A stretch of DNA of 64,000 nt. It comes from Candidatus Gallionella acididurans (GTDB lineage Bacteria > Pseudomonadota > Gammaproteobacteria > Burkholderiales > Gallionellaceae). Below the pieces are notes generated by a model, which was not told where the DNA came from, did no database searches, and saw only the letters and a program-made list of their open reading frames with translations. The stretch spans positions 1 through 64,000 of the forward strand of contig LSLI01000006.1 of assembly GCA_001577345.1 (NCBI GenBank), read 5' to 3'. The translations under genes and the position numbers were made by a program. This document shows positions 1,348 to 48,560 of this stretch, piece after piece. The stretch's first letter is position 1; each line of letters starts with the position of its first letter.

Positions 1348-1486
1348 AAAATTTTCGTCCTCGCGAGGGTGGCATCGAAGGCTGGTTGCTTCCCGATGCC
1401 GTTGCCGGCATCCGCACTACGTTACTGCCCGAACACGATCAGCCGCCGTTACTTCTGATTCGGTTCTGAGTAAAGTCGCCAAACAG

Positions 1487-2068: not shown

Positions 2069-2140
2069 TGGCCTGTTAATGGCGCGCAGCCATTCGGTTT
2101 CTTCCTGAGCTGCTGTCCAGCTTTGTCCCGGAACCGGTTG

Positions 2141-2692: not shown

Positions 2693-3910
2693 ATGCTGCG
2701 TTCATTAAGCCGCCCCGATATTTTGGTAACAACCCTTGCTGCTGCGGGAATTATGATGGTGACCATGGGCGCGCGCCAGTCACTGGGGCTCTTTATCGCG
2801 CCGATCGATGCGTCGTTGGGGCTTGGCATTGCCACCATCAGCCTGGCTTTGGCCATCGGGCAATTCACCTGGGGTGCAATCCAGCCAATCGCGGGAGCTC
2901 TTGCCGACCGTTTCGGCCCGCGCGCCGTGCTGGTTGGCGGACTGCTGATTCTGGCCTTGGGCAGCGCCATCACGCCGTTCATGGGATCCGGATTCGGCCT
3001 GACTGTATCACTGGGCCTGCTCTCAGCGATGGGTGCGGGCGCAGGCAGCTTTTCCGTGCTGATTGGCGCGGCCGCGCAGCGCTTGCCCATAGAGGCACGC
3101 GGACCGGCTTCCGGGGCCATCAATTCAGGCGGATCCTTTGGCCAGTTTCTTTTCGCGCCCATCCTGCAAAAGCTGATTCAATCGCTAGGCTGGATGGGCG
3201 CGATGTGGACGATGTCACTGATGATACTGGCGGCGCTCCCGCTGGTTGGGAAACTGACGAATTCTTTGGCGGGTGCACCGGTCAGGCATGCGCATGAAGA
3301 TACCGGTGTGCTAAAGGCCATAGGCACGGCCATCAAGAACCCCAGCTATCTGCTGCTGCATGCCGGATTCTTCACCTGCGGCTTTCATATTGCCTTTCTG
3401 GTTACACATCTGCCGGGCGAGATCAATCTGTGCGGATTGCCGCCATCGGTAGCCAGCTGGTCCATTGCCATCATCGGTCTGGCCAATATATTCGGGAGTC
3501 TCGTTGCGGGATCGTGTGTTTCCCGATACCGCAGTAAATATATCCTGGCCACGATGTATGCCTCGCGCGTATTACTGATCGGCATTTACCTGATGATGCC
3601 GCGAACCGAACTGACGTTCTACCTGTTTGCGGCCGGCTTGGGCTTTACCTGGTTGGCGACCGTGCCACCAACGGCCGCCATTGTTGGAAAATTGTTCGGC
3701 ATTCGCTATTTGTCCACGCTGTTCGGCCTCACGCTGCTGAGCCATCAAATTGGCGGTTTTCTCGGCGCTTACCTAGGGGGCATAGTGATTACCCGATTTG
3801 GCGACTTTGGATGGATGTGGTACGCGGATATGGCGCTCGCGGCATTTGCGGCGTTGATCAATTTGCCAATTCGCGAATCGCCTGTCGCACTCTCCCTGGC
3901 CCCGGCCTGA
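2693..3910 (+). CDS. Major facilitator superfamily transporter
   Basis: A 405-residue protein with about 12 predicted membrane spans. The signature loop between TM2 and TM3 reads GALADRFGPRAVLVGG, close to the MFS consensus GxLaDrxGrr. The N-terminus (GARQSLGLFIAPI) resembles the OxlT/CynX/oxalate-formate antiporter-like branch. The ATG at 2693 was chosen over an upstream frame start because GGAG lies 7 bases before it and the protein then begins just ahead of TM1. The substrate cannot be read from sequence. The neighbouring divergent winged-helix gene (2141-2392) could be its regulator, which is inference. Confidence 0.85.
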   Translation: MLRSLSRPDILVTTLAAAGIMMVTMGARQSLGLFIAPIDASLGLGIATISLALAIGQFTWGAIQPIAGALADRFGPRAVLVGGLLILALGSAITPFMGSGFGLTVSLGLLSAMGAGAGSFSVLIGAAAQRLPIEARGPASGAINSGGSFGQFLFAPILQKLIQSLGWMGAMWTMSLMILAALPLVGKLTNSLAGAPVRHAHEDTGVLKAIGTAIKNPSYLLLHAGFFTCGFHIAFLVTHLPGEINLCGLPPSVASWSIAIIGLANIFGSLVAGSCVSRYRSKYILATMYASRVLLIGIYLMMPRTELTFYLFAAGLGFTWLATVPPTAAIVGKLFGIRYLSTLFGLTLLSHQIGGFLGAYLGGIVITRFGDFGWMWYADMALAAFAALINLPIRESPVALSLAPA

Positions 3911-3969
3911 CCGGCGATAAATCAACATGATGATTGCCGCAAATTATGGAATGCCCCGCAGGAAACATC

Positions 3970-4782
3970 TCAGTTACCTGGCTGGCTTGCCTGCTTGTGG
4001 GGCAGTTCATTCAGATGCTCAAACAGTCTCAATGCAAGCGCACGACGTCCGGTTTCCGGCATACCCTCAACAATGGCCGGCATTTTGGTATCGGGGTTGA
4101 TAGAAGAAGGGTTCAGCACCCAGACAAGGAATTTTTCCCTGCCAAGAATTTTCGTTTGCTCGGCCAAATCCAAAGGCGCTTTATTTCCGCCGAAACCGTT
4201 CACCTGGTGGCAGCTGAGACAGTATTTTTCCAATTCTGGCGCATCGCGAGATTTTTCCCCTGAAATCAGGCTTTGCTCGGAGGATACTGACATCAGTATC
4301 TCGTTGACTTGGTAAGGCCAGTAGGTACCGCCTTCACTGATCAGGCCGGGATGATGGATGTTGTCCCACACCAGATAGTAAGGGGCCAACGCTACATTCT
4401 CCTCATGCTGTTTCAGGTTGTTCACCCTGAATTCGCGCGCATTCTTTTTTGCGAAGACCAGGTAAGCGTGATACTGGTCAAAGCGCCCAGTTGGTATCCG
4501 GGAAACATAGCCATCCAGGGCCCTGAATTCGACAGTGGTACCTGCAGCCTTCCATTCGGCGCCAAATAGCACCCGAAAAATTTTTTCAACCGGATATCCC
4601 AGGTAAACCACATGCGGCCGGGTTTTTCCTGCTATCAAGTGCGGTTCGACCACTTCAACTTCTATGGGCGATTCGGCCAGCAGGCGTTTCAGCTCATTCG
4701 CATCGGGCAACACGGCGGCGTTTGAGTGGCTTGACAGCAACACCAAGAGCAAAAACAAAATGCCGTGAAATCTGATTAACAT
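3970..4782 (-). CDS. Exported monoheme c-type cytochrome with extra N-terminal domain
   Basis: A 270-residue protein with a cleavable signal peptide (hydrophobic segment to about residue 22, SNAA cleavage region) and one CXXCH heme-attachment motif, CLSCH, near residue 188. A downstream MPAI in NPDTKMPAI supplies a plausible axial Met, so the C-terminal third is a class I cytochrome c domain. The first roughly 160 mature residues form a separate domain I cannot name, with some likeness to modules beside molybdopterin or cytochrome oxidoreductases. It would act in the periplasm as an electron carrier or redox subunit. It is convergent with the MFS gene, and the next gene on its strand encodes an exported CMD-family protein. 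Confidence 0.85.
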   Translation of the reverse strand: MLIRFHGILFLLLVLLSSHSNAAVLPDANELKRLLAESPIEVEVVEPHLIAGKTRPHVVYLGYPVEKIFRVLFGAEWKAAGTTVEFRALDGYVSRIPTGRFDQYHAYLVFAKKNAREFRVNNLKQHEENVALAPYYLVWDNIHHPGLISEGGTYWPYQVNEILMSVSSEQSLISGEKSRDAPELEKYCLSCHQVNGFGGNKAPLDLAEQTKILGREKFLVWVLNPSSINPDTKMPAIVEGMPETGRRALALRLFEHLNELPHKQASQPGN

Positions 4783-8937: not shown

Positions 8938-10353
8938 TTATTTTGCGTCTGTCTTCCAAGTCCCCCCCAGGGCCGTGATCAGTCCCGCGTTGGCGAGCAG
9001 CCTTCGTCCGGTGATGTTGAGGCTGGCTTGTTGCGCACTGAGCGCTGTCGCCTGCGCAATCACGACATTCAGGTAACTTACCGTGCCGGCCTGGTACTGG
9101 TTCTGGGTCAACAGCAACGCTTCGGCTGCAAAACGGGTCGCCGAATCCTGCGCGGTAGTTTCATCGGCCAATTTGCGCAGCGCGGCGATATTGTCTTCAA
9201 CTTCCTGAAAGGCGGAGAGCACAGTCTGGCGATATGTGGCGACACTGGTGTCATAGACCGCAATTGCGGCATTCTTCTGCGCGGAGAATGCACCGCCATT
9301 AAATACGGTCATCGCGAGGGATGAGCCTACAGACCAGAAGCGATTTGGCAGTGTGAACAGTTGCGAGAAGCTGGAATTCTGGTAGCCGCTGTTGCCGGTC
9401 AAGGTCAGGGCCGGAAAAAACGCTCCCTGTGCCACGCCAATCTGGGCGTTGGCTGCTGCCATACGGCGCTCGGCGCCGGCGATATCGGGGCGCCGCTCAA
9501 GCAGGGCAGAAGGCAGGGCCAGCGGAACCGCCGGCAGCGTTGGCAGCCCGTTGGTGGGCTTGATCTCGAAATCGGCCGGGGGCTTGCCGATCAACACGGC
9601 GATTGCGTGTTCCAGCTGGGCCCGCTGCACGCCCAGATCAATGGCCTGGGCCTGGGTCGATTTCAGTTGCGTCTCCGCCATCGCAACATCAACGCGGCTG
9701 TCGACACCAGCTGCATAGAGGTTTTGGGTGATCTGCAGCGTGCGTTCGTAGGCCTTGCCGGTCTGTTCGAGCAGACGCCGCTGCTCGTCGTTGATGCGCA
9801 GCTGGAAATAGGACAGCACCAGCGTGCTCTGGGCCGACAACAGCGCGGCCTGCAGGTCCGATTGACTGGCCTGGGCCGAGGCCTTGCTGGATTCGACACT
9901 GCGCCCGATTTGTCCCCAGATATCCGGTTCCCAGCTGGCGCCCATGGTGGGGCGCACAATGTTGTAGATCGGCGACCCGGGCGTCACGGTTGATGTGCCG
10001 ACCGTTGATGACGGGGAAGAACCCTGTCCGCGTCCGACCGCCAATCCGGCGCCCACAGTCGGATAATAGGCGGCTTGGGCCACACCGAGCAATGCCAGCG
10101 CTTGCCGGTATTGCGCTGCAGCGGCTACCACATTCTGGTTTGATACCTCGACCTGCGCCACCAGACTGTTCAGTTCCGAGTCGTCATAAATTTCCCACCA
10201 GTTGCCGCGCGGCACCCCGTCCCTGGGCTCGGCCGGTTTCCAGTTTCCGGCCTCCTTGTAGGCGGCCGGCATTGCGACATCGGGGCGATGGTAGTCCGGG
10301 CCGACCATGCAACCGGTCAGCAGCAGGACAAGCAACAGAGCAAGCGTCTTCAA
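8938..10353 (-). CDS. RND efflux outer-membrane factor lipoprotein (OprM/NodT family)
   Basis: A 471-residue TolC-like outer-membrane channel. The signal peptide ends in a lipobox LLTGC (Cys15), followed by the family N-terminus GPDYHRPD. Two internally repeated outer-membrane-efflux domains follow, each with the long helical stretches and the RRPDI.AAE-type motif (LLERRPDIAGAERRMAAAN). It completes the tripartite pump with the adaptor and the two inner-membrane pumps encoded upstream on the same strand; the gap from the mdtC-like stop is 12 bases, so it is the last gene of the operon. The arrangement A-B-C-outer-membrane factor matches MuxABC-OpmB of pseudomonads. Confidence 0.93.
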   Translation of the reverse strand: MKTLALLLVLLLTGCMVGPDYHRPDVAMPAAYKEAGNWKPAEPRDGVPRGNWWEIYDDSELNSLVAQVEVSNQNVVAAAAQYRQALALLGVAQAAYYPTVGAGLAVGRGQGSSPSSTVGTSTVTPGSPIYNIVRPTMGASWEPDIWGQIGRSVESSKASAQASQSDLQAALLSAQSTLVLSYFQLRINDEQRRLLEQTGKAYERTLQITQNLYAAGVDSRVDVAMAETQLKSTQAQAIDLGVQRAQLEHAIAVLIGKPPADFEIKPTNGLPTLPAVPLALPSALLERRPDIAGAERRMAAANAQIGVAQGAFFPALTLTGNSGYQNSSFSQLFTLPNRFWSVGSSLAMTVFNGGAFSAQKNAAIAVYDTSVATYRQTVLSAFQEVEDNIAALRKLADETTAQDSATRFAAEALLLTQNQYQAGTVSYLNVVIAQATALSAQQASLNITGRRLLANAGLITALGGTWKTDAK

Positions 10354-10365
10354 GATGTGTTCCTG

Positions 10366-13300
10366 TCATTCATGGCGTATAGAGGGGAGAACAGGCTTGC
10401 TTCCCGGCCAAATATCCAGGCACCAAAGCCGGAAACGGTCGAGATACAGATAGACCACCGGGGTAGTATACAACGTCAACAACTGGCTCAGAATCAGTCC
10501 GCCGACGATGGAAATGCCCAGCGGCCGCCGGAACTCGGCGCCGTCGGAGAAGCCGATCGCCAGCGGCATGGCGCCGAATAATGCGGCCATCGTGGTGATC
10601 ATGATAGGACGAAAACGCAGCAAACAGGCTTGCCGGATCGCGTCGCGCGGAGACAGGCCGTCGCGCCTTTCGGCATCGATCGCGAAATCTATCATCATGA
10701 TGGCATTTTTCTTGACTATGCCGATCAGCAGGATGACACCGATCAGCGCGATGATCGAAAACTCCGTGCCGAAAGCCATCAGCGCCAGCAGGGCACCGAC
10801 TCCGGCCGAAGGCAGGGTTGACAGGATGGTTAACGGATGTATCAGGCTTTCGTAGAGTATGCCCAGCACCAGATAAACCGAGATCAGCGCGGCGAGTATC
10901 AGGAAAGGCTGGCTGTTGAGCGATGCCTGGAATGCCCTCGCGGTGCCCTGGAAATTGCCCTGCACCGAGCTCGGCACGCCAAGTTTTAGTATCGCGTCGT
11001 TGATGGCCTGCGTCGCATCGGACAGTGAAATGCCGACCGGCAGATTGAAAGACAGCGTTGCTGCGGCGAATTGTCCCTGGTGATTGACCACCAGCGGTGT
11101 AGCCGTCGGCTCATAATGCGCAAGCGAATCCAAAGGCACCTGGGCCGTTGTCCCGTTGGGACCGGGCGCGATGACATAAATATCCTTCAGTGTTTCCGGA
11201 CTCTGCAAATATTGCGGCGCCGCCTCCATGACGACACGGTATTGGTTGAGCGGGTTGTATATCGTCGATACCAGGCGCTGGCCAAACAGGTCGTTGAGCG
11301 TGGAGTCGATCAGGAATTGCGAAACACCCAGCCGTGCAGCGGCGTCTCTATCAACCACCAGCGTGGTTTGCAAGCCTTTATCCTGCTGGTCGGTGTTGAC
11401 GTCGGCAAGTTGCGGCAGTTTGCTCAAGGCCTCGCGGATGCGCGGCTCCCAAAAGCGCAGTTCGCGGATGGTGTCGGCTTGCAGCGTGTACTGGTACTGG
11501 GCGTTGCTGGGACGTCCGCCGACCCGGATATCCTGTTGCGGTTGCAGGTACAGGCTGGAGCCCGGTTCGCGCGCGATTCTGGGACGCAGGCGCGCAATGA
11601 TCTGGTCGGCAGAAATTTTCCGCTCCGCGAGCGGCTTCAGCGACACGAACATGAAGCCAGAGTTGCGCTGTCCGCCCCCGGTGAAAGCGATGACGTTGTC
11701 CACACCGGGGTCCGAGTGCACGATGTCCACATAGCTGGCCAGTTTTTCGCGCATCGCCTGGAAGGAAATACTCTGGTCGGCCTGAATGATGCCTATCATC
11801 CGTCCCACGTCCTGCTGGGGGAAGAAGCCTTTCGGTACGATGCTGTAGAGATAGATGTTGAGTCCGATGGTGGCCGCCAGCACCAGCAGCATGATGCGAC
11901 CATGGGCCAGCGCCCAATCGAGCGAGATGCGATAGCGGTTCAGCGCCGCCGCGAAAATGCGACCGCTGGCATGGTACAGGCGCCCGTGTTGTTCCTCTTT
12001 GCGCGGCCTCAGCAAATGCGCACACATCATAGGCGTGGTGGTCAGCGACAACACCAGCGAGACCAGAATGGCGGCGGAAAGTGTGACGGCAAACTCGCGG
12101 AACAGCCGCCCGATGATGCCGCCCATCAGCAGAATGGGGATGAATACCGCAATCAGCGACAGACTCATCGCCAGCACGGTAAAGCCGACCTCGCGCGCGC
12201 CGCGCCGCGCCGCGTCGAACGGCGAACTGCCGTTCTCGATATGGCGTGACACGTTCTCCAGAACCACCACCGCATCGTCGATGACGAAACCGGTAGATAT
12301 GGTCAACGCCATCAGCGACAGCATGTTCAGGCTGAAGCCCGCCAGATACATGACCGCGAACGTGCCAACCAGGGACACTGGAACGACGATGCTGGGTATC
12401 AGCGCCGCGCGGCCATTGCGCAGGAACAGGAACACCACCAGCACGACGAGGATCACGGAAATGATCAGTGTGCGTTCGACCTCATGCAGCGAAGCGCGGA
12501 TAGTCGGCGTGCGGTCCATCACCACATCGAGGTCGATCGCGCCCGGGATGGAGGCGCGCAACAGCGGCAGCAGGCCGCGCACGCGGGCCACGGTTTCGAT
12601 GATGTTGGCACCCGGCTGGCGGTATACGATCATCATCACCGCGGGCTTGCCGTTGAACAGTCCGGCGTTGCGCACGTCCTGTACCGAATCCTCGACGCTG
12701 GCGACATCGCCGATGCGCACCGCCGCGCCGTTGTGGAACGCGACGATCACCGGTATGTAGTCGGCCGCAGTCCTGGCCTGGTCGTTGGCCAGAATCTGCA
12801 AGTGGCGATCCCCCTCCTCGAAAGCTCCCTTGGGCCGGTTGGCATTCGTTGCGAAGATGGTTTTGCGCACATCTTCAGCGCCTATGCCGAGCCGGTTCAT
12901 TGCCGGCGGATCAAGTTCGACGCGCACCGCAGGCAGCGAACTGCCGCCGACCGTGACCTGGCCTATCCCGTCGAGCTGTGAAATCTTCTGCGCCAGAATG
13001 GTCGAGGCGGCATCGTACATCTGGCCGCGCGACAACGATGCCGAAGTCAGCGACAGGATGATGATGGGCGCATCTGCGGGGTTCACCTTGCGGTAGGTCG
13101 GATTGTTGGGCATGCCGGTCGGCAGCAGTGTCAGCGAAGCATTGATGGCAGCCTGCACATCGCGCGCGGCGCCGTCGATGTTGCGGGAAAGGTCGAACTG
13201 CAGGATCACGGCGGTATTGCCCAGCGAACTGCTGGAGGTGATCTCGGTGATGCCGGCAATCGTGCCCAGCGACCGTTCAAGCGGGGTGGCCACCGTCGAA

Positions 13301-13479
13301 GCCATGGTTTCCGGGCTGGCACCGGGAAGCGCAGCCTGCACGGCTATGGTAGGGAAATCGACCTGCGGCAGCGGCGCCACCGGCAACAATGTGAATGACA
13401 CGGCGCCGGCCAGGGCCAGGCCCAGCGTCAACAGCGTGGTTGCGACCGGGCGGTTGATGAATGGGGCGGAGATGTTCAT
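10366..13479 (-). CDS. mdtC: RND multidrug efflux pump subunit MdtC/MuxC
   Basis: A 1037-residue resistance-nodulation-division transporter with the standard layout: TM1 at about 12-30, a large periplasmic loop, TM2-TM6, a second periplasmic loop and TM8-TM12. The proton-relay Asp pair in TM4 is present in [13 protein letters not shown]. In E. coli, MdtB and MdtC form a heterotrimer working with MdtA and TolC. This gene follows mdtB with a 4-base ATGA overlap, so the two are translationally coupled. The N-terminus [14 protein letters not shown] is typical of the MdtC branch. Substrates are not readable from sequence; bile salts, novobiocin and other antibiotics are known for relatives. Confidence 0.95.
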
Positions 13480-16400
13480 GCCGGGTTCACGACTGCGCGC
13501 CGCCGCGCAAATCGGTCGAAAGCAAGATAAATGACCGGAGTGGTGAATAGCGTCAGTACCTGGCTCACGATCAGCCCCCCGACCATCGTGATGCCCAGCG
13601 GATGGCGCAATTCCGAACCGACGCCCGTGCCCAGCATCAGCGGCAGCGCGGCCAGCAGCGCCGACATCGTGGTCATCAGGATGGGCCGGAAGCGCAGCAA
13701 GCAGGCCTGGTAGATCGCTTCCCGCGGCGTCTTGCCCTGTTCACGCTCTGCGCTCAGCGCGAAATCGATCATCATGATCGCGTTCTTCTTGACTATGCCG
13801 ATCAGCAGGATGATACCGATGATCGCGATGATGCCGAGATCATTGCCCGACACCAGCAGCGCGAGCAGCGCGCCGACCGCTGCTGACGGCAGCGTCGACA
13901 GTATCGTCACGGGGTGGATGAAACTCTCGTAGAGCACGCCGAGCACGATGTACATAGTGACGATGGCGGCAAGGATCAGCAGCAGGGTGTTGTCGAGCGA
14001 GGCCTGGAAGGCCAGCGCGGCGCCCTGGAAGCCGGTCTCCACGCTGGCCGGCATGTCGAGTTCCGCGCTGGCCTTGCGTATCGCGGCAACTGCTGTGCCG
14101 AGCGAAACGCCAGGCGCGAGATTGAATGAAACGGTCGAGGCGGGGAACTGGCTGATATGGTTGACGGCCAGCTGGGTGGTTTTTTCGGTGACGCGTGCAA
14201 TCGACAGCAGCGGCACCTGGCTGCCGGTAGGCGAGACGATATAAATATTGTCCAGCGCAGCGATGCCCTTGTGGAATTCCGGCTTGACTTCCAGCACCAC
14301 GCGATACAGGTTGGATTGCGTGAATATGATCGAGATCAGGCGCTGGCCGAACGCATCGTAGAGCGCGTTGTCTATCGCGGCCGTGGTGATGCCGACGCGC
14401 CCGGCGCTGGCGCGGTCGATGTCGATATAGGCTTGCAGGCCCTGATCCTGGGTGTCGCTGGCGACGTCCAGCAATTCCGGCACCTTGCGCAGGCGGGCCA
14501 CCAGTTTCGGCACCCACAGCGCGAGTTCGTCCGGGTTGGCGTCCTGCACACTGTACTGGTATTGGGTGCGGCTGACGCGGTCTTCTATCGTGAGATCCTG
14601 CACCGGCTGCATGTAGGTCGTGATGTTGCCGAGCTTGTCTAGATGCGCCTGCAGGCGGCGGATTACACCGCTGGCATCGGTGTCGCGCTCGGACTTGGGC
14701 TTCAGGTTGATCAGCATGCGGCCGCTGTTGAGCGTGATGTTGCTGCCGTCGACGCCGATGAACGAGGACAGGCTCGCCACCGCCGGATCGGCCAGTACGA
14801 TATCTGCGACGGCCTGCTGGCGTTCCGCCATCGCGGCAAACGAGATCGACTGGGGAGCCTCGGTGATGGCCTGGATGACGCCGGTGTCCTGCACCGGAAA
14901 GAAGCCCTTGGGCACGAAAACATAGAGCAGCACGGTCAGCGCCAGCGTGGCGGCGGCGACCAGCAGGGTCGCGCCCTGGCGGTCCAGCACCCAGTTCAGC
15001 CAGATGCCATAGCGCGCGATTACCCGGTCAAAGAAGGCGCCGCTGGCGCGGTAGAAGCGCCCCTGCTGTTCCGGCGGTGTATGGTGCAGCAGGCGCGCGC
15101 ACATCATCGGCGTTAGCGTCAGCGACACCAGCGCGGAGATCAGGATGGCCACCGCCAGCGTGATCGCAAATTCGCGGAACAGCCGGCCGACCACGTCACC
15201 CATGAACAGCAGCGGGATAAGCACCGCGATCAGCGAGAAGGTCAGTGAGATGATGGTGAACCCGATCTGCTCGGAGCCCTTGAGCGCAGCCTGCATCGGG
15301 GATTCGCCGGCCTCGACGTAGCGCGAGATATTCTCGATCATGACGATGGCGTCATCAACGACGAAGCCGGTGGCTATCGTCAGCGCCATCAGGGTCAGGT
15401 TGTTGATCGAGAAACCCGCCAGATACATGACGCCGAAGGTGCCGATAAGGGACAGCGGCACGGCAACGCCCGGGATCAGCGTCGCCGGCACATTGCGCAG
15501 GAACACGAATATCACCATCACCACCAGTGCCACGGCCAGAAGCAGTTCGAACTCGACGTCATGCACCGAGGCGCGGATCGTGGTGGTGCGGTCGGTCAGC
15601 AGCCGGACATCCACGGTGCCGGGCAGGGCGGCCTGCAGCTGCGGCAATATTTTCTTGATGTGGTCGGCCGTCTCGATCACGTTGGCACCCGGCTGGCGCT
15701 GGATATTGAGAATGATGGCCGGCGCGCGGTTGGCCCAGGCCGCCAAGCGCACGTTTTCGGCGCCGTCAACCACGTCGGCAATGTCGCGCACGCGTATCGG
15801 CGAACCGTTCTTCCAGGCGAAGACGAGGTCGAGATACTCGGCGGCGGACTTGAGCTGGTCGTTGGCATCCAGCGTGGTAGCGCGCATCGGGCCGTCGAAA
15901 CTGCCCTTGGGCATGTTGACGTTGGCATTGGCGATGGCGGTGCGCAAATCTTCAAGGTTGAGCCCGTATGCCGTCAGCGCATTGGGATTGGCCAGGATGC
16001 GTACCGCCGGCCGCTGTCCCCCGCCTATGCTCACCAGCCCGACGCCGGGCATCTGCGAAAGTTTTTGTGCCAGCCGCGTATCCACGAGGTCTTCGAGCTT
16101 GGGTAGCGGCAGCGTTGCCGAGGTGATCGCCAAGGTGATGATGGGTGCATCGGCGGGATTGATCTTGCTGTAGATCGGCGGCATCGGCAGGTCGATAGGC
16201 AGGAACGAGCTGGCCGCGTTGATGGCTGCCTGCACTTCCTGTTCGGCGACATCCAGCCCCAGGGTCAGGCTGAATTGCAGCGTGATCACCGAGGCGCCGC
16301 CCGAACTGGCTGACGACATCTGGTTCAGGCCCGGCATCTGGCCGAACTGGCGCTCCAGCGGTGCGGTGATCGATGAAGTGGTTACGTCCGGGCTGGCGCC

Positions 16401-16556
16401 GGGATAGAGCGTGGTGACCTGGATAGTCGGGTAATCAACCTCGGGCAGGGCCGAGACTGGCAGCTCGCGGTAACCCATCAGCCCCGCCAGAACGATCGCG
16501 ACCATCAGCAGCGAGGTCGCTACCGGCCGCTGGATGAAAAGGCGCGACGGATTCAC
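13476..16556 (-). CDS. mdtB: RND multidrug efflux pump subunit MdtB/MuxB
   Basis: A 1026-residue RND transporter, paralogous to the downstream mdtC. It has the RND N-terminus ([15 protein letters not shown]), the [16 protein letters not shown] segment after TM1, and the TM4 motif [13 protein letters not shown] with both essential Asp residues. With MdtC it forms the inner-membrane part of a proton-driven tripartite pump spanning to the outer membrane. It overlaps both the adaptor gene upstream and mdtC downstream by 4 bases (ATGA), so all three are expected to be made in fixed ratio. No truncation or missing motif is seen. Confidence 0.95.
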
Positions 16557-17737
16557 TGCGGGCTCAGGCCGGCGCTTTTGCCTGCAGTGGTGCGAGCGCT
16601 GGGTGTCGTCACTTCGATTTTTGCGCCTGCACGCAATTTATCCGTGCCGTCGGTCACAACCTGTTCGCCGACGGCAAGCCCGTGCTCGATGGCGACGATA
16701 TCACCGGAAACCGGACCGAGCGTCACGGGGCGGATGGAGACCGTCTGGTCCCGGCCGACGACGTAGACGAAGGTACCTTGTGTACCGCGCTGTATCGCCG
16801 CGGTTGGTGCCAGAATTGCGTTGTGCCTGGTCTCCACACGCAACCGGGCATTCACGAACTGGTTGGGGAAAAGATTCTCGTCGGTATTGGCAAATTCCGC
16901 CTTGACCATGACAGTCCCGGTGGTGACGTTGATCTGGTTGTCCAATGTCAGGAGTTTGCCGGTGGCCAATCTGGTCTTGTTCTCGCGGCCGAATACATCG
17001 ACTGACAGCCTGTTACCTGCATGCACGCGCGCCAGCACTGCAGGGATATTGTCGGCCGGAATGGCAAACAGGACGTAGATCGGCTGGATCTGGGTAACCA
17101 CCACCACGCCGTTGATATCGGTAGTGCTGACCATGTTGCCCGAGTCGACCTGGCGTATCCCGAGCCGTCCGGACAAAGGGGCAGTGATGCGCGTGAAATC
17201 GACGTTCAACTGGGCGTTCGCTACCTGGGCGCGATCGCTCAGCACGGTGCCTTCATCCTGCAGCACCAGTGCTTCCTGGTCATCGACCTGCTGCTTGGCA
17301 ATGGAGTCTTTGGCCCAAAGAACGCGGTAACGGTCAAGATCGAGCTTTGCGCCGGCCAGCAGCGCCTGGTCGTGTGCCAGCTGGCCCCTGGCCTGGTCGA
17401 GTATCACCTGGAAAGGCCGCGGGTCTATTTGCGCCAGAACCGCGCCTTTCTTCACCGTCTGACCCTCGCGAAACAGGATGTGCTCCAGCAGGCCGTTGAC
17501 GCGCGCCTTGACCGTTGCCGTATTGAGCGCTGTGACGGTGCCCAGCCCGTCGATGTAAACGTCGATATCGCCGGCTCTGGCCATGGCGGCCTGTACCGGC
17601 ATCGGCTTCCCGCCACCGCCGAGAACCGGCTTTTTGTCTTCCGGTTTTGCGGGCGCGTTTGCCGGCTTGTGGAAAATCCAGAATGCAAGCACGCCGGCCA
17701 GCAACAATGCGGCGACCCCAAAAATTATCTTTCTCAT
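16553..17737 (-). CDS. mdtA: RND efflux periplasmic adaptor MdtA/MuxA
   Basis: A 394-residue membrane-fusion protein. The N-terminus has one membrane anchor (residues 5-23), then a Pro-rich linker, the biotinyl-lipoyl half-motifs ([18 protein letters not shown] and ...[20 protein letters not shown]), an alpha-helical hairpin between them and a beta-barrel domain. It links the MdtBC pump to the outer-membrane factor. It is the first gene of a four-gene operon (17737 down to 8938). The ATG at 17737 begins just before the anchor. Immediately upstream is an interspersed repeat (17762-18013), so the promoter is either within the repeat or between it and the preceding gene. No dedicated regulator is adjacent. 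Confidence 0.94.
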
Positions 17738-39954: not shown

Positions 39955-40111
39955 AGCGGTACTGCACGCCCATGCCTGATTGCATTTAAACCAGCCCGGC
40001 CGAAAGCGGATGAAGTAATGCAATTTAAGGAGGCGCCGGTGGATGATTTTACGGGACAGATGTCTTTGTCATGAGCGATTCTTTAACTGTGGTGTTAAAA
40101 AGTACAAAGCC

Positions 40112-40744
40112 ATGAAAAAACTTGCGATTGTTATATTGCTATCTGGATTTGTTGTCCACCCAGTCTGGGCGGATGATTTCTATGACTTTCCGGTTCTGGA
40201 CGATAATGCCGGGAGGTTTTATGCCGGGGCAGATATGGTTTCGGCTACTTACAGTGGCTCGTTTTTCCCCAGCACCGCCGGCCTTCGCATTACAGGCGGT
40301 TACAACTTCTCATCGGCGTTCGCCATTGAGACGGGTTATGCGATATTGTCAAATACGAGCAACAACTGCAACTATGGATGCGGCTACGGGGGAGGGTATG
40401 GCTACGGGGGATATAGTAATTATCCCCCGCAGTACGCGTCGTACGCTTTCAACGCATCATCATTGCAAATCGCCGCGATAGGAAAGTATCCGCTCAGTGA
40501 TGCATTTTCCATATTCGGCAAGATCGGGTTTGATCACAACTCAATGAACTACGCTTCTACGGACAATAACGGCAACAATCTGCCCACCATAAGCGGCTCC
40601 CAGTCCAACCGGCTGTATGGCATCGGTGGTGAATATAACATGGGTGAAGGGATTGTTTTGCGCACGGATTTTGAAGACTTGGGCAATGTCGCCCCAGGGG
40701 TCGGCATGAGAATGATTTCGCTGGGTGGAGTTTACAACTTTTGA
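40112..40744 (+). CDS. Outer-membrane beta-barrel protein, OmpA-like transmembrane type
   Basis: A 210-residue protein with signal peptide (MKKLAIVILLSG..., cleaved near VWADD) and a mature 8-stranded-barrel-like region rich in Tyr, Gly, Asn and Ser, ending in a strand with terminal Phe (LGGVYNF), the classic BAM-recognised C-terminus. One extracellular loop is Gly/Tyr/Cys-rich (NNCNYGCGYGGGYGYGGYS). The start is not settled: an in-frame ATG at 40043 has a perfect AAGGAGG at 9-base spacing but would put 23 unusual residues before the signal peptide, whereas the ATG at 40112 gives a normal signal peptide without a clear ribosome-binding site. Confidence 0.82.
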   Translation: MKKLAIVILLSGFVVHPVWADDFYDFPVLDDNAGRFYAGADMVSATYSGSFFPSTAGLRITGGYNFSSAFAIETGYAILSNTSNNCNYGCGYGGGYGYGGYSNYPPQYASYAFNASSLQIAAIGKYPLSDAFSIFGKIGFDHNSMNYASTDNNGNNLPTISGSQSNRLYGIGGEYNMGEGIVLRTDFEDLGNVAPGVGMRMISLGGVYNF

Positions 40745-40862
40745 TCCGGTCGGCAGGCTTGAACAGCCAGCGCGCCTGCGTCAACGTTGCCCGAATTTTC
40801 CGCTCACCCCGCGCCCGTAGCCCGGCTTCGCAACAACTTCCAATCTAAAACGGAAAACTGGT

Positions 40863-40991
40863 TCAGCCGAATATATCTACAATGTACGGGGCAAAAGAAG
40901 CTACTGTAACGGACAAGGTGGCTAACCAACCAAGTTCGCTGAAGAATTCAATTTCATCTCTGTCGTATTGGGTTTCTGGTTTCAGGGACAT
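40863..40991 (-). CDS. 42-residue single-pass membrane protein
   Basis: A short ORF: ATG at 40991, TGA at 40863-40865, with a full AGGAGG 7 bases upstream and a good sigma-70-type promoter at 41080-41109. The product has a polar, acidic head (MSLKPETQYDRDEIEFF) and one hydrophobic segment (ELGWLATLSVTVASFAPYIV). It shares head-then-helix layout and the GWLA-x3-V-x2-AS-x-A pattern with the 37-residue protein at 7210-7323. Expression signals are the best of any small ORF in the window. The function is unknown; size and topology fit a small subunit or regulator of a membrane complex. Confidence 0.7.
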   Translation of the reverse strand: MSLKPETQYDRDEIEFFSELGWLATLSVTVASFAPYIVDIFG

Positions 40992-41079
40992 GATTGCAGC
41001 CTCCTAAAAGACTTGTAACGGTAAATGGCAATTTTGATTGCCATCGCACTTTGTTTGTAATGCCACAAAATGTGACAGC

Positions 41080-41109
41080 ATACTAAACATAGTTGAGTGA
41101 ATATGTCAA
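41080..41109 (-). promoter_or_regulatory. Sigma-70-type promoter for the 42-residue protein
   Basis: On the minus strand, a consensus -35 TTGACA (41109-41104) and a -10-like TAGTAT (41085-41080) are separated by 18 bases. Transcription would start near 41073, giving an 80-base leader before the ATG at 40991. Confidence 0.6.
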
Positions 41110-41197
41110 GTATTGCATGCAATCAGCAGTTATCCGGCAGCCAGCCAGGATGCTGCTCACGATTCTAAAAGCATTCCCCCGTTGCAGGTGAAGCAGA

Positions 41198-41851
41198 TTA
41201 CTGGGAGATAAAGGCGAGAAGTTCCGTTGGCTGGTTCACGCTGCCGTGCGCGCACCAGTTTTCGACGGATGCATCGGCACTGACATAGCCGTAGTTGGCG
41301 ATGATGCCGCGCATCCCTGCGGCGTTGGCGGCCTGCATGTCGCGCAGGTCGTCGCCGATATACAGGCACTGTGCGGGAGAAGCACCGATGATTTCGCAGG
41401 CTTTGAGCATCGGTTCGGCATGCGGCTTGGCATGGGCACAGGTGTCGCCGCTGACCAGGCAGGAAGCGCGCCCGGCATAGCCCAGCGCCTGCATCAGCGG
41501 CACGGTAAAGCGGTGCGGTTTGTTGGTGACGATGCCCCACTTGATGCCGTGCTGTTCCAGTGCGGCGACCAACTGCGCGGTGTCACCGAACAGTTTCGTA
41601 TGCACGCAGATGTTGCTGGCGTAGTAGTCGAGGAAGATGTCGCGCAGCGTGTCATAGTCAGAGTGCCCCGGCTCGATGCCGAAGCCAACCTTAAGCAGCC
41701 CGCGTGAGCCGTGCGACGCTTGCGGGCGCAGCACTTCGAGGGGAAGAGGGGGCAGGTGGCGGGTGGCGCGGGTGTGGTTGAGCGCGGCAGCGAGGTCGGA
41801 TGCGGTGTCGGCGAAAGTGCCGTCGAGGTCGAACAATACGGCCTTAATCAC
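41198..41851 (-). CDS. gph: Phosphoglycolate phosphatase, HAD family
   Basis: A 217-residue HAD-superfamily phosphatase: the nucleophile motif DLDGTFADT (DxD at 8-10), motif II in GIVTNKPH, the motif III Lys in HAKPHAEP and the motif [13 protein letters not shown], plus a helical cap between motifs I and II. It removes 2-phosphoglycolate made by oxidative damage repair or by Rubisco oxygenation. It starts 8 bases inside the end of ubiG and is translationally coupled to it, a pairing (ubiG-gph) usual in betaproteobacteria. A sugar-phosphate or FMN-type HAD phosphatase cannot be ruled out. Confidence 0.9.
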
Positions 41852-42702: not shown

Positions 42703-45261
42703 ATGGAACAGCAATTCGCCAAAGAAACACACCCCGTCAGCCTCGAAGAAGAAATGCGCAAATCCTATCTGGATTATGCGATGAGCGTCATCATCGGGCG
42801 TGCCCTGCCCGATGTACGCGACGGTTTGAAGCCGGTGCACAGGCGCGTTTTGTTCGCGATGCACGAGCTGTCCAACGACTGGAACAAGGCCTACAAGAAG
42901 TCGGCGCGTATCGTGGGCGACGTGATTGGTAAATACCATCCGCATGGCGACACCGCTGTGTACGACACCATCGTGCGCATGGCCCAGGATTTCTCGCTGC
43001 GTTATCCGCTGGTGGACGGGCAGGGCAACTTCGGTTCGGTGGACGGCGACAACGCGGCGGCGATGCGCTATACCGAGATCCGCATGGCAAAGATCGCCCA
43101 CGAGTTGCTGGCCGACCTGGACAAGGAAACAGTCAACTTCGGGCCGAACTACGACGGTTCCGAGCACGAGCCGCTGGTGTTCCCGTCACGATTCCCCAAT
43201 CTGCTGGTGAACGGTTCTTCCGGCATCGCGGTGGGCATGGCGACCAATATTCCGCCGCACAATTTAAATGAAGTGGTGGATGCCTGCCTGGCGCTGCTGA
43301 AGAACCCGGATCTGGATATCGAGCAACTGATCGAATACGTGCCCGCGCCGGATTTTCCGACCGCCGGTTTCATCTACGGCCTGGCCGGAGTTAAGGAAGG
43401 CTATCGCACCGGGCGCGGACGCGTGATCATGCGCGGACGCACCCATTTCGAGGACATCGGCAAGGGCGAGCGCCAGGCCATTATCATCGACGAGCTGCCC
43501 TACCAGGTGAACAAGGCCAATCTGCTGATCAAGATCGGCGAGCTGGTGCGCGAGAAGAAGCTGGAAGGCATTTCCGAGATTCGCGACGAGTCGGACAAGT
43601 CCGGGATGCGCGCGGTGATCGAGCTGAAGCGCGGCGAGAACGCCGACGTGATCCTGAACAAGCTGTACAAGGACACCCAGCTGCAGGACAGTTTCGGCAT
43701 CAACATGGTCGCGATCATCGACGGCCAGCCCAAGCTGCTCAATCTCAAACAGATCATTGATGCGTTCCTGCGCCACCGCCGCGAAGTGGTCACGCGCCGC
43801 ACCATTTTCGAATTGCGCAAGGCTCGCGAACGCGGCCATATCCTGGAAGGTCTGGCGGTGGCGCTGTCCAATGTGGACGAGATCATCGCGCTGATCAAGG
43901 CAGCACCCACGCCTGCTGATGCCAAACGCGGACTGATGGAACGCGGCTGGCGCTCTTCGCTTGTGGAGGATATGCTCAGCCGCGTCAGCGACGCTTCCCG
44001 CCCGGAGGGCCTGCTGCCCGAGTTTGGTCTGGTCGGCAAGGGCAAGACCGCCGGCTATCATTTATCCGACGCCCAAGCGCAGGCGATATTGGAGCTGCGC
44101 CTGCAACGCCTGACCGGGCTGGAGCAGGACAAGATCGTCGGCGAATACCGCGAAGTGATGGACAAGATCACCGACCTGCTCGACATCCTGGCCAGGCCGG
44201 AACGCGTGTCGCAGATCATTCATGATGAGCTGGTGGCGGTGAAAGCGCAGTTCGGCGACAAACGCCGCAGCGAGATCATCACGCACACCCAGGACATGAG
44301 CATGGAAGACCTGATCGCGCCCGAAGACGTGGTGGTCACGCTGTCGCATGGCGGTTACATGAAATCGCAGCGTCTCGACGAATACAAGGCGCAGAAACGC
44401 GGCGGCCGCGGCAAGCAGGCCACTGCAACCAAGGAAGACGATTTCATCGACAACCTGTTCATCGCCAATACGCATAATTTCATCCTGTGCTTCTCCAATC
44501 GCGGCCGCGTGTACTGGCTCAAGGTCTATGAGGTACCGCAGGGCAGCCGCATCTCGCGCGGCAAGCCGATAGTGAATCTGTTGCCCCTGGAAGAGGGCGA
44601 GAAGATCAATGCAGTATTGCCGGTCAGCGAGTTCGTCGAGGACAAATACGTGTTCTTCGCGACATCCGGCGGCACGGTGAAAAAGACCCCGTTGAACGAT
44701 TTCTCGCGACCGATGAAGCGCGGCATCATCGCGATCAATCTGGACGAAGACGACCACCTGATCGGGGTTGCGCTCACCGACGGCAAGCATGATGTGATGC
44801 TGTTCTCGAACGGCGGCAAGGCGGTGCGCTTCGACGAGAACGACGTGCGCGCGACCGGACGCGCCTCGCGCGGCGTGCGCGGCATGAAGCTTGCGCCCAA
44901 GCAGCAGGTGATCTCGCTGCTGGTGGCCGAGAACGAGCAGCAAAGCGTGCTGACCGCGACCGAAAACGGTTACGGCAAGCGCAGCCCCATCGTCGAGTAC
45001 ACCCGCCACGCGCGCGGCACGCAGGGCATGATCGCAATCAAGACTTCGGAGCGCAACGGCAAGGTGGTCGCCGCGACGCTGGTGGACGTGGACGACGAGA
45101 TCATGCTGATCGGCACCAGCGGCGTGCTGATACGCACCCGCGTCAAGGAAATTCGCGAGATGGGCCGCACTGCCCAGGGCGTGACGCTGATGAACGTGGA
45201 GAAGGGCGAAAAGCTGGCCGGCCTGAGCCGCATTGCCGAGCCGGAAGACGAGGCCCAGTAG
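42703..45261 (+). CDS. gyrA: DNA gyrase subunit A
   Basis: An 852-residue type IIA topoisomerase subunit. The breakage-reunion domain holds the active-site Tyr in [10 protein letters not shown] (about residue 123); the quinolone-resistance region reads HGDTAVYD, with Thr84 and Asp88 at the positions of E. coli Ser83 and Asp87 (Thr is the wild-type residue in some species). The C-terminal DNA-wrapping domain contains the GyrA box QKRGGRG. The stop is followed after only 6 bases by the AlbA_2-type gene, so the accessory pair is likely transcribed with gyrA. The usual next gene, serC, lies 2.2 kb away. Confidence 0.97.
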
Positions 45262-45267
45262 AAATAT

Positions 45268-46452
45268 ATGTTGACCGAAGCACAATTGGCTGAATTGTTA
45301 TCTGATCTGGAGTCGGATCGCGTTGAGCGCACGGTGTCTGTCACAGATACCGACAAGTTCTGCCAAGCAATTTGTGCTTTTGCCAATGATTTACCCAGCC
45401 ACCGCCAACCTGGCTATTTATTAATTGGCGTTAGGGATGATGGGAGCTTGGCGGGATTGTGTGTTACCAATCAATTGTTACTAGACCTCGGCGCTATTCG
45501 ATCGAATGGCAATGTTTTATTTCCTCCAGTAATGTCGGTGGCTAAGTTTAGCTTGAAAGGCGGCGATGTAGCAGTGGTTGAGGTTTTGCCATCTGATATG
45601 CCGCCGGTACGCTACAAAGGGCGAATATATATACGTGTCGGCCCGCGTAAGGCAGTTGCCACTGAGCAAGAGGAGCGCATCCTTAGCGAGCGTCGCACTG
45701 CTGCGGTTCGTTCCTTCGATGCACGCCCCTGCATTGAGTCAAACCTTGATGACTTAGCGTTGGGACAATTTGATGCCTATCGCCGAGAAGCTGTGGATGC
45801 TGAAACCATAGCGGCCAATCATCGTGACATTGAACAGCAGCTAGCTTCTCTCAGGATGTATGACCTTGGACGTGCTTGCCCGACTTTTGCAGGAATTTTG
45901 TTGTTTGGTAAAAATCCCCGGTTCTTTTTACCGGGGGCATATATCCAATATCTCAAATTACCTGGCTTGGATTTAACCGATATTCCGGAAGATCAAGCTG
46001 AAATATCGGGTGACTTGAATTCGATGTTACGCGAACTGGAATTAAGGATTAAGTCATTCGTTCAAACCTCGATGCATCAAGTGAACTCGTTAGAGGAACG
46101 GTTGTTGCCGGACTACCCCGAGTGGGCTTTGCGTGAACTGTTGATGAATGCGGTCATGCACCGCAATTATGAGAGCAATTCACCGGTTCGTTTTTATGTT
46201 TTCAGTGACCACATTGAGATTCAGAGTCCAGGTGGTTTATATGGAGAGGCTACATCGAGCAATTTTCCAACACGAAATAGTTACCGCAATCCAGTGATAG
46301 CAGAAGCAATGAAGTCGCTTGGTTTCGTTAACCGCTTTGGTTACGGTGTGCAGCGTGCCCAAGCATTGCTCAATGAAAATGGCAATCCGCCCGCAGAATT
46401 TTTGTTCGATGAACATGCGGTATTGGCCAAGATTTACCGGAGGGCAGCATGA
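45268..46452 (+). CDS. AlbA_2 (Schlafen-like) domain protein with GHKL-type C-terminus
   Basis: A 394-residue protein. Residues about 15-140 are an AlbA_2/Schlafen-type domain (FCQAICAFANDLP, GYLLIGVRDDGSLAGL). Residues about 290-390 resemble the HATPase_c_4 module often misnamed RecG helicase (WALRELLMNAVMHRNYE, then HIEIQSPGGLYG, then RFGYGVQRAQ). No signal peptide or membrane span is seen. The ATG lies 6 bases after the gyrA stop with no close ribosome-binding site, so translation is probably coupled to gyrA. The stop overlaps the ParA-like start by 4 bases (ATGA). Codon use is visibly richer in A/T third positions than gyrA or serC, pointing to horizontal gain. AlbA_2 proteins include RNA-cleaving and DNA-binding members; the role here is unknown. 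Confidence 0.85.
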   Translation: MLTEAQLAELLSDLESDRVERTVSVTDTDKFCQAICAFANDLPSHRQPGYLLIGVRDDGSLAGLCVTNQLLLDLGAIRSNGNVLFPPVMSVAKFSLKGGDVAVVEVLPSDMPPVRYKGRIYIRVGPRKAVATEQEERILSERRTAAVRSFDARPCIESNLDDLALGQFDAYRREAVDAETIAANHRDIEQQLASLRMYDLGRACPTFAGILLFGKNPRFFLPGAYIQYLKLPGLDLTDIPEDQAEISGDLNSMLRELELRIKSFVQTSMHQVNSLEERLLPDYPEWALRELLMNAVMHRNYESNSPVRFYVFSDHIEIQSPGGLYGEATSSNFPTRNSYRNPVIAEAMKSLGFVNRFGYGVQRAQALLNENGNPPAEFLFDEHAVLAKIYRRAA

Positions 46453-47435
46453 AAACGATAGCCTTTTTCAATAACAAAGGCGGCGTGGGAAAAACCTCAT
46501 TGGTGTATCACTTGGCGTGGATGTTTTCGGATCGTGGAATAAAAACATTGGCGGTTGATCTTGATCCGCAGGCTAATCTGACGTCCATGTTTCTGAAAGA
46601 AGAACGTTTGGAAGAGTTATGGCCGGACGGTGAGCACCCAGACACTGTTTATGGGGCGATTCGTCCAATTTTGAAGGGTGTCGGAGATATTGCTGAACCG
46701 CACATTGAAAAGATTACGGATAAGCTAGGGTTAATTCCGGGAGACCTCGGGCTATCCCAGTTTGAAGATAAGCTTTCGGACGCTTGGCCTCGTTGCCATA
46801 ATAGTGATGAGTCTGCTTTTCGTACCATGACTGCCTTTCATCGACTTGTGCAACATGGTGCTGCTCAGGGAGCAGAGCTGGTTTTGATCGATGTTGGCCC
46901 TAACCTGGGAGCGATTAACCGGTCAGCATTAATTGCCGCCGATCAAGTCTGCTTGCCGTTGGCACCCGATTTGTTTTCTTTGCAAGGTCTCAAGAATCTT
47001 GGACCAACACTGAATAAGTGGCGTGATGTTTGGAAGGGTCTGTTGGAGAAGGCTCCTATTGATGTTGCGATGCCCAAAGGGGCGATGCAACCCGTTGGTT
47101 ACATAGTCATGCAGCACGGTATTTTGAATAGCCGACCGGTGAAAGCCTATCAGCGTTGGCTGGATAAAATCCCTCAAACCTATCGTGAGTCCGTGTTGAC
47201 TGAGGACGCTACTAGGAATGTTCCTGTAGTTACAGAAGACCCGTATATGCTTGCACTATTGAAGCATTATCGTAGCCTGATGCCGATGGCAATGGAAGCG
47301 AACAAGCCGATTTTCTTCCTGAAATCAGCAGATGGTGCAATTGGATCACACCAAGAGGCGGTTGCGAGCTGTTATTCAGATTTCAAAAAACTGGCAGCTA
47401 AGATAGCCGCAAATGCAGGCATTGCGTTTTCTTGA
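46449..47435 (+). CDS. ParA/MinD-type P-loop ATPase
   Basis: A 328-residue ATPase with the deviant Walker A KGGVGKTS (residues 10-17, with the signature Lys), A' in LAVDLDPQANLTS and Walker B in LVLIDVGPNLGAINR. It lacks an N-terminal helix-turn-helix and no parB-like gene or parS-like repeat is near, so it is unlikely to be a chromosome-partition ParA. After the ATPase core there is about 90 residues of extra sequence (EDPYMLALLKHYRSLMPMA and onward). It overlaps the AlbA_2 gene by 4 bases, so the two products are made together and probably interact. The base composition matches its partner and differs from flanking housekeeping genes. Confidence 0.88.
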   Translation: MKTIAFFNNKGGVGKTSLVYHLAWMFSDRGIKTLAVDLDPQANLTSMFLKEERLEELWPDGEHPDTVYGAIRPILKGVGDIAEPHIEKITDKLGLIPGDLGLSQFEDKLSDAWPRCHNSDESAFRTMTAFHRLVQHGAAQGAELVLIDVGPNLGAINRSALIAADQVCLPLAPDLFSLQGLKNLGPTLNKWRDVWKGLLEKAPIDVAMPKGAMQPVGYIVMQHGILNSRPVKAYQRWLDKIPQTYRESVLTEDATRNVPVVTEDPYMLALLKHYRSLMPMAMEANKPIFFLKSADGAIGSHQEAVASCYSDFKKLAAKIAANAGIAFS

Positions 47436-47459
47436 AAATCTAAGACGGAGAGTGATGGT

Positions 47460-48560
47460 ATGACGATTTACAACTTTAGCGCCGGTCCGGCGGTGTTGCC
47501 GAAAGCAGTGTTGCAGCAGGCGCAGGCGGAATTGATCGATTGGCACGGCAGCGGCATGTCGGTGATGGAGATGTCGCACCGCGGCAAGGAATACATGGGT
47601 ATCCACGCACAGGCCGAAGCGGATCTGCGCGAGTTGCTGGGCATACCATCCAACTACAAGGTGCTGTTCCTGCAGGGCGGTGCGCACCTGCAGTTCTCCA
47701 TGGTCCCGTTGAACCTGTTGCGCGGCAAACTCTCCGCGGATTACATCAACACCGGTGAATGGTCGAAGAAGGCGATCGAGGAAGCGAAGAAATTCAGCTA
47801 TGTGAATGTGGCGGCGAGCAATGCCGACAAAAACGCAAGCTATGTTCCCGCTTTTGATTCATGGAAGCTGGACAAGGATGCGGCTTTTGTTCATTACACG
47901 CCCAACGAGACCATAGGCGGCGTCGAGTTCAACTGGGTGCCCGATGTCGGCGCGGTGCCTCTGGTGGCGGACATGTCGTCCAACATCATGTCGCGCGCCA
48001 TCGACGTGTCCAGGTTCGGCCTGATCTATGCCGGCGCGCAAAAGAACATAGGTCCCGCAGGCCTCACGATCGTGATTGTGCGTGAAGAACTGGTGGGCCA
48101 CGCCCCTTCCGGCTTGCCTGCCATGCTGGACTACAAGACCCATGCCGACAATGGTTCGATGTACAACACGCCCCCCACCTATGGCATCTACATGGCCGGG
48201 CTGGTGTTCCAGTGGCTGAAGAAGAATGGTGGCATCGCGGCGATGGAACGCGCCAACACCGCCAAGGCCAATCTGTTGTATGCGGCGATCGATGCCAGCA
48301 ACGGTTTCTACCGGTGTCCGGTGAACAAGGCGGACCGTTCGCGCATGAACGTGGCCTTTACTTTGAAAAATACAGGCACGCTGAAAGATGCCAATCTGGA
48401 CGGCGACTTCCTGAAGCAGGCCGACGCGCGCGGCCTGCTGCAACTCAAGGGTCACCGTTCGGTGGGCGGTATGCGCGCTTCGATATACAACGCGATGCCG
48501 ATCGAAGGGGTTCATGCCCTGGTCGGTTTCATGAATGAATTCGCAAACAGCAAGGGATGA
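47460..48560 (+). CDS. serC: Phosphoserine aminotransferase
   Basis: A 366-residue PLP-dependent class V aminotransferase converting 3-phosphohydroxypyruvate to phosphoserine, and also acting in pyridoxal phosphate synthesis. The N-terminus [15 protein letters not shown] is diagnostic, and the PLP Lys lies in [12 protein letters not shown]. The ATG has GGAGAG about 9 bases upstream. In related betaproteobacteria serC follows gyrA directly; here an A/T-richer two-gene pair intervenes. Downstream, serA follows by about 90 bases and pheA, hisC, aroF and tyrA continue the biosynthetic block. Confidence 0.96.

Follow-up and report, generated by a model that had tools for sequence, protein, structure and literature searches.

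The subject of this analysis is a pair of adjoining genes in Candidatus Gallionella acididurans, found in a stretch of 64,000 nucleotides (nt) of contig LSLI01000006.1. This whole stretch is called the window below, and all coordinates of the pair and its neighbors are window positions. The first gene encodes a candidate effector with a Schlafen/AlbA_2 domain and a GHKL ATP-binding domain, and the second encodes an orphan ParA-type ATPase. The two genes lie between gyrA and serC, as follows (aa, amino acids; ORF, open reading frame):

42703–45261, plus strand: gyrA, the upstream housekeeping neighbor and presumed transcriptional host
45262–45267, plus strand: 6-base gap from the gyrA stop to the effector start, the left edge of the insertion
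45268–46452, plus strand: effector candidate (394 aa, ATG start), based on ORF, Pfam, structural model and alignment
46449–46452, plus strand: ATGA overlap of 4 bases between the effector stop and the ParA start
46449–47435, plus strand: orphan ParA-type ATPase (328 aa, ATG start), based on ORF, Pfam, structural model and alignment
47436–47459, plus strand: 24-base gap from the ParA stop to the serC start, the right edge of the insertion
47460–48560, plus strand: serC, the downstream housekeeping neighbor

The original prediction had described two genes with a 4-base overlap, 6 bases past the gyrA stop and more A/T-rich than their neighbors, and both the ORF positions and the composition bear this out. 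The GC content is 0.45–0.50 within the pair and mostly 0.53–0.66 across the surrounding 12 kb, and the GC content at third codon positions (GC3) is 0.458 and 0.459 for the two genes versus 0.819 for gyrA, 0.763 for serC, 0.757 for serA and 0.633 for pheA. A mobile element with its own recombinase was rejected, since no recombinase was recognized among the ORFs adjoining the pair in the window and no clear end repeats were found, only short, imperfect repeats being present within 45230–47470. Comparison of the edges with empty sites by eye indicates that the spacer has been exchanged, without any obvious duplication. A scan of positions 44900–47700 for sigma-70 patterns gave 0 promoters, against a mean of 3.0 in shuffled sequences, and the sequence weakly suggests that the pair is transcribed by read-through, without a promoter of its own. 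The search of the window proteins against NCBIfam returned no matches over its cut-offs; matches to the PADLOC pAgo-associated and PDC-M28B models among these proteins were not accepted as membership.

The search of a genome collection with ParA revealed 205 relatives, and the best 80 were kept (the 80 loci below). An AlbA_2 gene is located directly upstream of ParA in 78 of these, and the other two loci begin at contig ends; among the 78, one AlbA_2 gene is only a contig-end stub and some are broken. The 4-base overlap was found in 71 of the 77 measurable loci, a set that includes one contig of a viral collection. The same arrangement recurs with ParA relatives of 64–100% and effector relatives of about 45–98% identity to the window proteins, which excludes chance: the pair is a real two-gene module. 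The check for co-occurrence of the two families thus upheld the idea of a genuine two-gene system, and the titles of the records name many phyla (Pseudomonadota, Chlorobiota, Verrucomicrobiota, Acidobacteriota, Nitrospirota and others), although the placement of single loci may be wrong because most records are metagenome bins. The strains named among the relatives' records include Simplicispira metamorpha DSM 1837 and Thiorhodococcus minor DSM 11518. A survey of 274 genomes of the class detected AlbA_2 in nine, ParA in nine and both together in eight; the exceptions are a truncated 224-aa AlbA_2 stub (genome G269) and a ParA alone (genome G277).

Several single loci deserve mention. In G277 (locus L145, 3692–6515) a ParA of the AlbA_2 clade stands without AlbA_2, and the next gene carries both a type ISP restriction-modification (R-M) coupler and an N6-methylase domain. 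One Chlorobiaceae bin has the pair twice, about 18 kb apart (L033 and L037, contig CAJEXI010000002.1), and genome G463 has two copies on contigs C28 and C34. Locus L096 (6820–8969) places the pair on a 37-kb, putatively viral contig from a viral collection.

The presence of the pair is patchy. Of 101 genomes, 12 (our own among them) have a close ParA relative; ten of these 12 belong to the genus, and in eight of the ten the pair is directly upstream of serC, judged by coordinates. serC was matched in 54 of the 61 genus genomes and 30 serC loci were read, 26 of them with gyrA upstream of serC and no pair and four, including our own, with the pair, confirming that gyrA-serC is an ordinary gene order that the pair interrupts. 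The nearest relative read (L098 in genome G052) has an empty site with an ordinary spacer, and its gyrA and serC are 98.4 and 97.8% identical to ours over the stretch compared. The gap after gyrA amounts to a few bases in the carriers shown, and the spacers of the empty sites are variable. Patchy presence, foreign GC3 and the empty site in a sister with 98% identity together support the view, also held in the original prediction, that the pair is horizontally transferred DNA.

The effector matches Pfam SLFN_AlbA_2 at residues 15–128 (E 1e-14) and HATPase_c_4 at residues 305–383 (E 3e-15), both over the curated cut-offs; a middle region separates the two domains, and an invariant N294 precedes the second. 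No C-terminal winged helix-turn-helix (wHTH) domain was found, these two domains being the only Pfam matches and the second ending at residue 383 of 394. E15 and E20 are present in 58 of 58 aligned rows, and position 57 is Asp in 53 of 58, giving spacings of 5 and 37, which resemble those of the Schlafen carboxylate triad. Carboxylate triads are known from Schlafen proteins, namely E205/E210/D248 in rSlfn13 and E191/E196/D233 in SLFN5, in the part of the source available (PMC8789055), and E209/E214/D252 in SLFN11, again in the available part (PMC11615386). Modeled with AlphaFold2 (pLDDT 88, pTM 0.63), the effector has 3lmm as its best structural match over the whole length (Z 22.6, root-mean-square deviation 10.4), a deviation that makes the orientation of the domains in the model unsure. 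The model of the N-terminal domain matches 2kyy, SAMD9 (both tRNase and DNA-bound structures) and SLFN14, SLFN11, SLFN13 and SLFN5, with Z of 8.4–10.1 for the SAMD9 and SLFN domains, and the C-terminal part matches ATPase domains of histidine kinases. On many enterobacterial plasmids, distantly related AlbA_2-GHKL proteins (about 28% identity; matches H4–H30) are encoded beside a gene annotated as a TrlF family AAA-like ATPase, which may be a further pairing of effector and ATPase.

The second protein matches Pfam AAA_31 (E 1.2e-29, over the curated cut-off) and has an intact deviant Walker A motif (K10, G14, K15), K10 and K15 being kept in 62 of 62 rows. Its C-terminal part is common to most of the effector-linked ParA clade, and a C-terminal SL-P-Q-P and DG-G pattern recurs in many rows. 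The AlphaFold2 model (pLDDT 92, pTM 0.91) is best matched by 3pg5, followed by Soj. With a SLFN_AlbA_2 and HATPase_c_4 protein beside an AAA_31 ParA, the predicted combination of a putative nuclease or effector with an ATPase switch appears likely. The best matches of the two proteins, 3lmm (DIP2311) and 3pg5 (DIP2308), both come from Corynebacterium diphtheriae; they differ from the pair in sequence (about 18–19% and 27% identity) and are termed uncharacterized. The two locus numbers are three apart in one organism, which, judging from the titles of the structures, suggests an old linkage and an effector-ParA pairing that predates the Schlafen-ParA family.

A search of the genome for ParB_N gave a single match, about 20.3 kb into contig C8 and beside a Soj-like gene, with none adjoining the pair. 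On the 37-row tree described below, the ParA of the pair is set apart from four other ParA-family rows on long branches: three proteins of the same genome, one of them beside ParB, and one plasmid ParA beside ParB.

The relatives of this ParA are associated with several kinds of partner. Among 398 genomes of the phylum, the ParA clade was found in 34, where the partners are AlbA_2 in 20 (our own included, some broken), SIR2 in four, RelA_SpoT in four and HEPN in three; one further genome has a partner without a Pfam match, one has no partner and one ends with the contig. Six plasmid loci of distant ParA relatives were hand-picked among the 30 matches listed: in four (Vibrio ponticus, Salmonella enterica, Spirosoma and Photobacterium) a SIR2 gene overlaps the end of ParA, and the other two have no clear partner. 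The expected motifs of the partner families are largely present, R-x4-6-H in all three HEPN partners and G-x-G-x-S in seven of eight SIR2 partners. In a tree of 37 rows chosen by hand, the AlbA_2 (15 rows), SIR2 (seven) and HEPN (three) types each form one supported ParA clade. These data suggest that the Schlafen-ParA module belongs to a wider family of ParA-effector pairs and is its visible representative. Another distant ParA (L220 in genome G513, 3717–4448) has a partner with no Pfam match at E 0.1 that looks, by eye, like a class III nucleotide cyclase. Locus L219 (genome G545, 1231–4541) holds a HEPN-ParA pair directly after a gene for a 542-aa CTP synthase-like protein (pyrG, by eye), so that another housekeeping gene would serve as the host of a ParA-effector pair.

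The pair itself occupies the gyrA-serC site in the Gallionella group, sites beside alaS, mutS or metH, many single sites, and loci of the Hma (helicase-methylase-ATPase) anti-phage system, for which PADLOC defines HmaA, HmaB and HmaC. As these sites are unrelated, gyrA appears to be only one of many transcriptional hosts; the proposed tie to gyrase expression was therefore not sustained, and a gyrase-specific link as a general role was rejected. A close relative of hmaA and/or hmaB, whole or as a remnant, flanks the pair in 15 of the 80 loci (L016, L021, L022, L026, L027, L030, L032, L034–L037, L048, L054, L056 and L082); L020, L070 and L084, with only distant Hma relatives, were not counted. 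In a sample of 299 genomes of the phylum, HmaA was matched in only 12, so that by a rough reckoning chance adjacency is negligible. On the ParA tree, where 14 rows carry the Hma label (L021 and L037 being absent and L070, a distant relative, included), this label needs 10 changes, at least five of them forced by supported branches. The pair is intact in nine loci whose Hma genes have internal deletions or survive only as stubs (L021, L030, L032, L034–L037, L082 and L152), of which six belong to related Chlorobiaceae; L021 can be judged only in part because of short contig ends. The proposed check for enrichment near defense genes covered Hma and supports a link to this system. In L020 (3559–12881) the pair stands between a DUF1156-type methylase gene and a SNF2/PLD-helicase-like gene, a neighborhood that is Hma-like but different.

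Gene decay was counted over 116 loci, five of which are re-fetched copies, with more repeats between two collections possible. Both genes are intact in 98, the effector is broken beside an intact ParA in nine, both are broken in four, and in none is ParA broken beside an intact effector. The remaining loci comprise a tenth effector break that coincides with a contig end (L072), two loci cut by contig ends, L145 with its ParA and no effector, and L146 with an effector stub and no ParA. The difference of nine versus zero (p 0.004) is only suggestive of one-sided decay, in which the effector is lost and ParA is kept.

The two halves of the module also differ in their histories at the gyrA-serC site. 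In L049, L052 and L053 the effector is near that of the window (82–87% identity) and ParA is distant (72–74%), and in L009–L012 the effector is 63–65% and ParA 88–89% identical to those of the window. The effector tree rejects the window and L006–L012 as one group (p 2e-29), and the ParA tree rejects the window and L006–L008, L049, L052 and L053 as one group (p 0.0015); the groups for these topology tests were chosen after the identities had been seen, and the trees contain 28 rows picked from the set. The halves therefore reassort and must stay compatible.

Adjacency to Hma, the swapped SIR2, RelA_SpoT and HEPN partners and the mostly one-sided decay lead us to read the pair as an effector with an ATPase regulator. 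With moderate confidence, we propose that it is a module of effector and regulator that has spread horizontally, most likely of an abortive-infection kind resembling a toxin-antitoxin pair. In such a module the first protein would be the toxic effector, its Schlafen/AlbA_2 domain probably acting as a tRNase-type RNase fused to a GHKL ATP-binding domain. The orphan ParA would take no part in DNA partition; it would bind the effector and hold it inactive or release it depending on ATP and an invader cue, presumably from a phage or other invading DNA. Of the anti-phage role foreseen in the original prediction, the link to a defense system at other loci stands, but the activity itself is deduced, and a toxin-antitoxin or addiction role fits nearly as well.

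A number of observations weigh against this reading. Position D58 of the effector, which has the exact rSlfn13 spacing, is variable, and the position of rSlfn13 K212, near the active site, is Thr in 53 and Lys in only five of 58 rows. According to the available part of the source, SLFN5 is also without that lysine and no nuclease activity was seen for it (PMC8789055); the AlbA_2 domain might therefore bind nucleic acid rather than cut it. Structural Z values near 8 can be attained by unrelated folds, and 8.4–10.1 is only modestly above this level; the SAMD9 matches, moreover, include a DNA-bound domain. The RelA_SpoT type (three rows) does not form one ParA clade, two changes being needed. The pair was absent from all ten HmaA loci read (of 14 matches), which makes it at most an optional accessory of Hma; 65 of the 80 pair loci have no close Hma relative alongside, and the window genome itself has no match to HmaA, the component searched for, at E 1e-100. 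The decay count is biased toward intact ParA because the search was mostly ParA-first, although in AlbA_2-first searches all 14 of 14 full-length effectors stood beside an intact ParA, and some gene breaks may be assembly errors. Finally, L218 (genome G381, 1737–3494) is of the RelA_SpoT type and has a ParA with an internal TAG beside a partner that reads through whole, a possible counter-example to ParA as an essential antitoxin.

The strongest alternative, which we nevertheless regard as unlikely, is that ParA acts as a sensor and activator: on the nucleoid it would recognize invading DNA or a replication intermediate and then turn on an effector that is silent by itself, giving defense and no addiction. 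ParA-type ATPases with ATP bind DNA non-specifically, the effector's own ATP-binding domain could allow self-restraint, and the broken ParA of L218 beside its whole partner would fit this scheme. The Hma link would fit it as well, as would the type I or type ISP R-M genes linked to single loci of the wider ParA clade. Against it, intact pairs persist among Hma ruins, and ParA is kept in the nine loci with a broken effector, where an activator would not need keeping.

Less probable again is a pure addiction or selfish toxin-antitoxin pair with no dedicated anti-phage role, which would hitch to operons and persist by post-segregational killing or allele exchange. Retention of the pair where the adjoining Hma genes are deleted, insertion beside unrelated housekeeping genes and the reassortment of alleles at gyrA-serC all agree with this explanation. 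On the other hand, no close effector relative was found on plasmids (98 records, all below 60% identity, the best among the matches listed 29%) and no close ParA relative among 50,697 phage records (90 matches, also all below 60%). For ParA on plasmids there are at least 5000 records, the best among the matches listed having 34% identity; two records at 60–80% were counted outside these matches and must be short ones, since the rows are ordered by coverage × identity. In addition, the SIR2, HEPN, RelA_SpoT and Schlafen partner types are also typical of abortive infection.

It is improbable that the pair is a housekeeping regulator, in which AlbA_2-GHKL would bind nucleic acid and ParA would be a positioning ATPase, for example to adjust gyrase or the state of the nucleoid. 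Some plasmid records do annotate distant AlbA_2-GHKL proteins as regulators, and in eight of the ten genus carriers the pair stands immediately before serC, but a patchy pair of foreign composition, missing from a sister with 98% identity and found beside many unrelated genes, whose distant ParA relatives have toxin-type partners, is hard to reconcile with such a role. A ParABS-like partition or maintenance function, or debris of an integrated plasmid, is very improbable: the pair shares the ParA fold and an intact deviant Walker A motif with canonical ParABS, but it has no adjacent parB, its ParA clade is separate from ParB-linked and other own-genome ParAs and exchanges toxin-type partners, and no insertion-end repeats were found, in agreement with the original argument against partition.

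The preferred reading of an effector held by ParA has precedents. A dyad of HEPN (MAE_18760 family) and ParA/Soj proteins was predicted as a toxin-antitoxin system with the ATPase postulated as the antitoxin, according to the available part of the paper (Anantharaman et al., 2013; PMC3710099). As in that dyad, a gene for a putative RNase-type effector stands beside a gene for a ParA/Soj-like ATPase in 78 of our 80 loci, and the ParA clade of the window protein includes other members with HEPN partners. The window pair probably works like the HEPN-ParA dyad. Should the HEPN partners seen here, which match Pfam RiboL-PSP, correspond to the MAE_18760 family, both pairs may share one ParA clade. 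The window pair is not a member of the dyad, because its effector is different: SLFN_AlbA_2 with HATPase_c_4 instead of HEPN, encoded by the first gene. The SIR2 and RelA_SpoT partners of the ParA clade are not mentioned for the HEPN dyad in the available part of its description (PMC3710099).

Proteins that combine a Schlafen-family RNase, a minimal histidine kinase and a wHTH domain adjoin BREX and BREX-related systems, as stated in the available part of another paper (PMC12839542). They resemble our effector in the combination of AlbA_2/Schlafen and GHKL histidine-kinase-type domains and, in the same part of the text, in their linkage to DUF499-type (Hma) loci, whereas the window effector has no wHTH, is paired with ParA and is mostly found away from Hma genes; the word ParA is absent from the main text of that paper. 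In the literature searched, mostly open-access with few preprints, no description was found of the Schlafen-ParA pairing or of a multi-effector ParA family. The suggestion of an undescribed system can thus be kept for the Schlafen pairing, but the HEPN-ParA dyad and the BREX-side Schlafen-kinase-wHTH proteins have already been reported, as far as the available parts of these sources go (PMC3710099; PMC12839542).

ParA-type ATPases are almost automatically filed as partition or positioning proteins. We tentatively offer, as a plausible scenario still short of probable, that the non-partition ParA clade is a general immune switch, in which one ATPase scaffold drives interchangeable effectors moved as two-gene cassettes: a Schlafen-GHKL RNase, a SIR2 NADase, a RelA/SpoT-type alarmone enzyme, a HEPN RNase and perhaps a nucleotide-cyclase-like protein. 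Such cassettes would settle in housekeeping operons, which transcribe them, and in Hma loci, where they would serve as a back-up. If this ParA clade does regulate several unrelated toxic effectors, many annotations as "ParA family protein" are misfiled, and a testable question is what the orphan ParA senses and whether nucleotide-driven dimerization or DNA binding holds or fires the toxin. Bacterial Schlafen proteins would then gain a dedicated partner, and the environmental strains carrying the pair offer material for such work.

Two other regions of the window may be noted. On the minus strand, positions 8938–17737 contain ORFs of 471, 1037, 1026 and 394 aa, whose sizes suggest an RND efflux operon, and positions 40000–41249 form a second low-GC stretch (0.48–0.51) beside a gene that by eye is ubiG-like.

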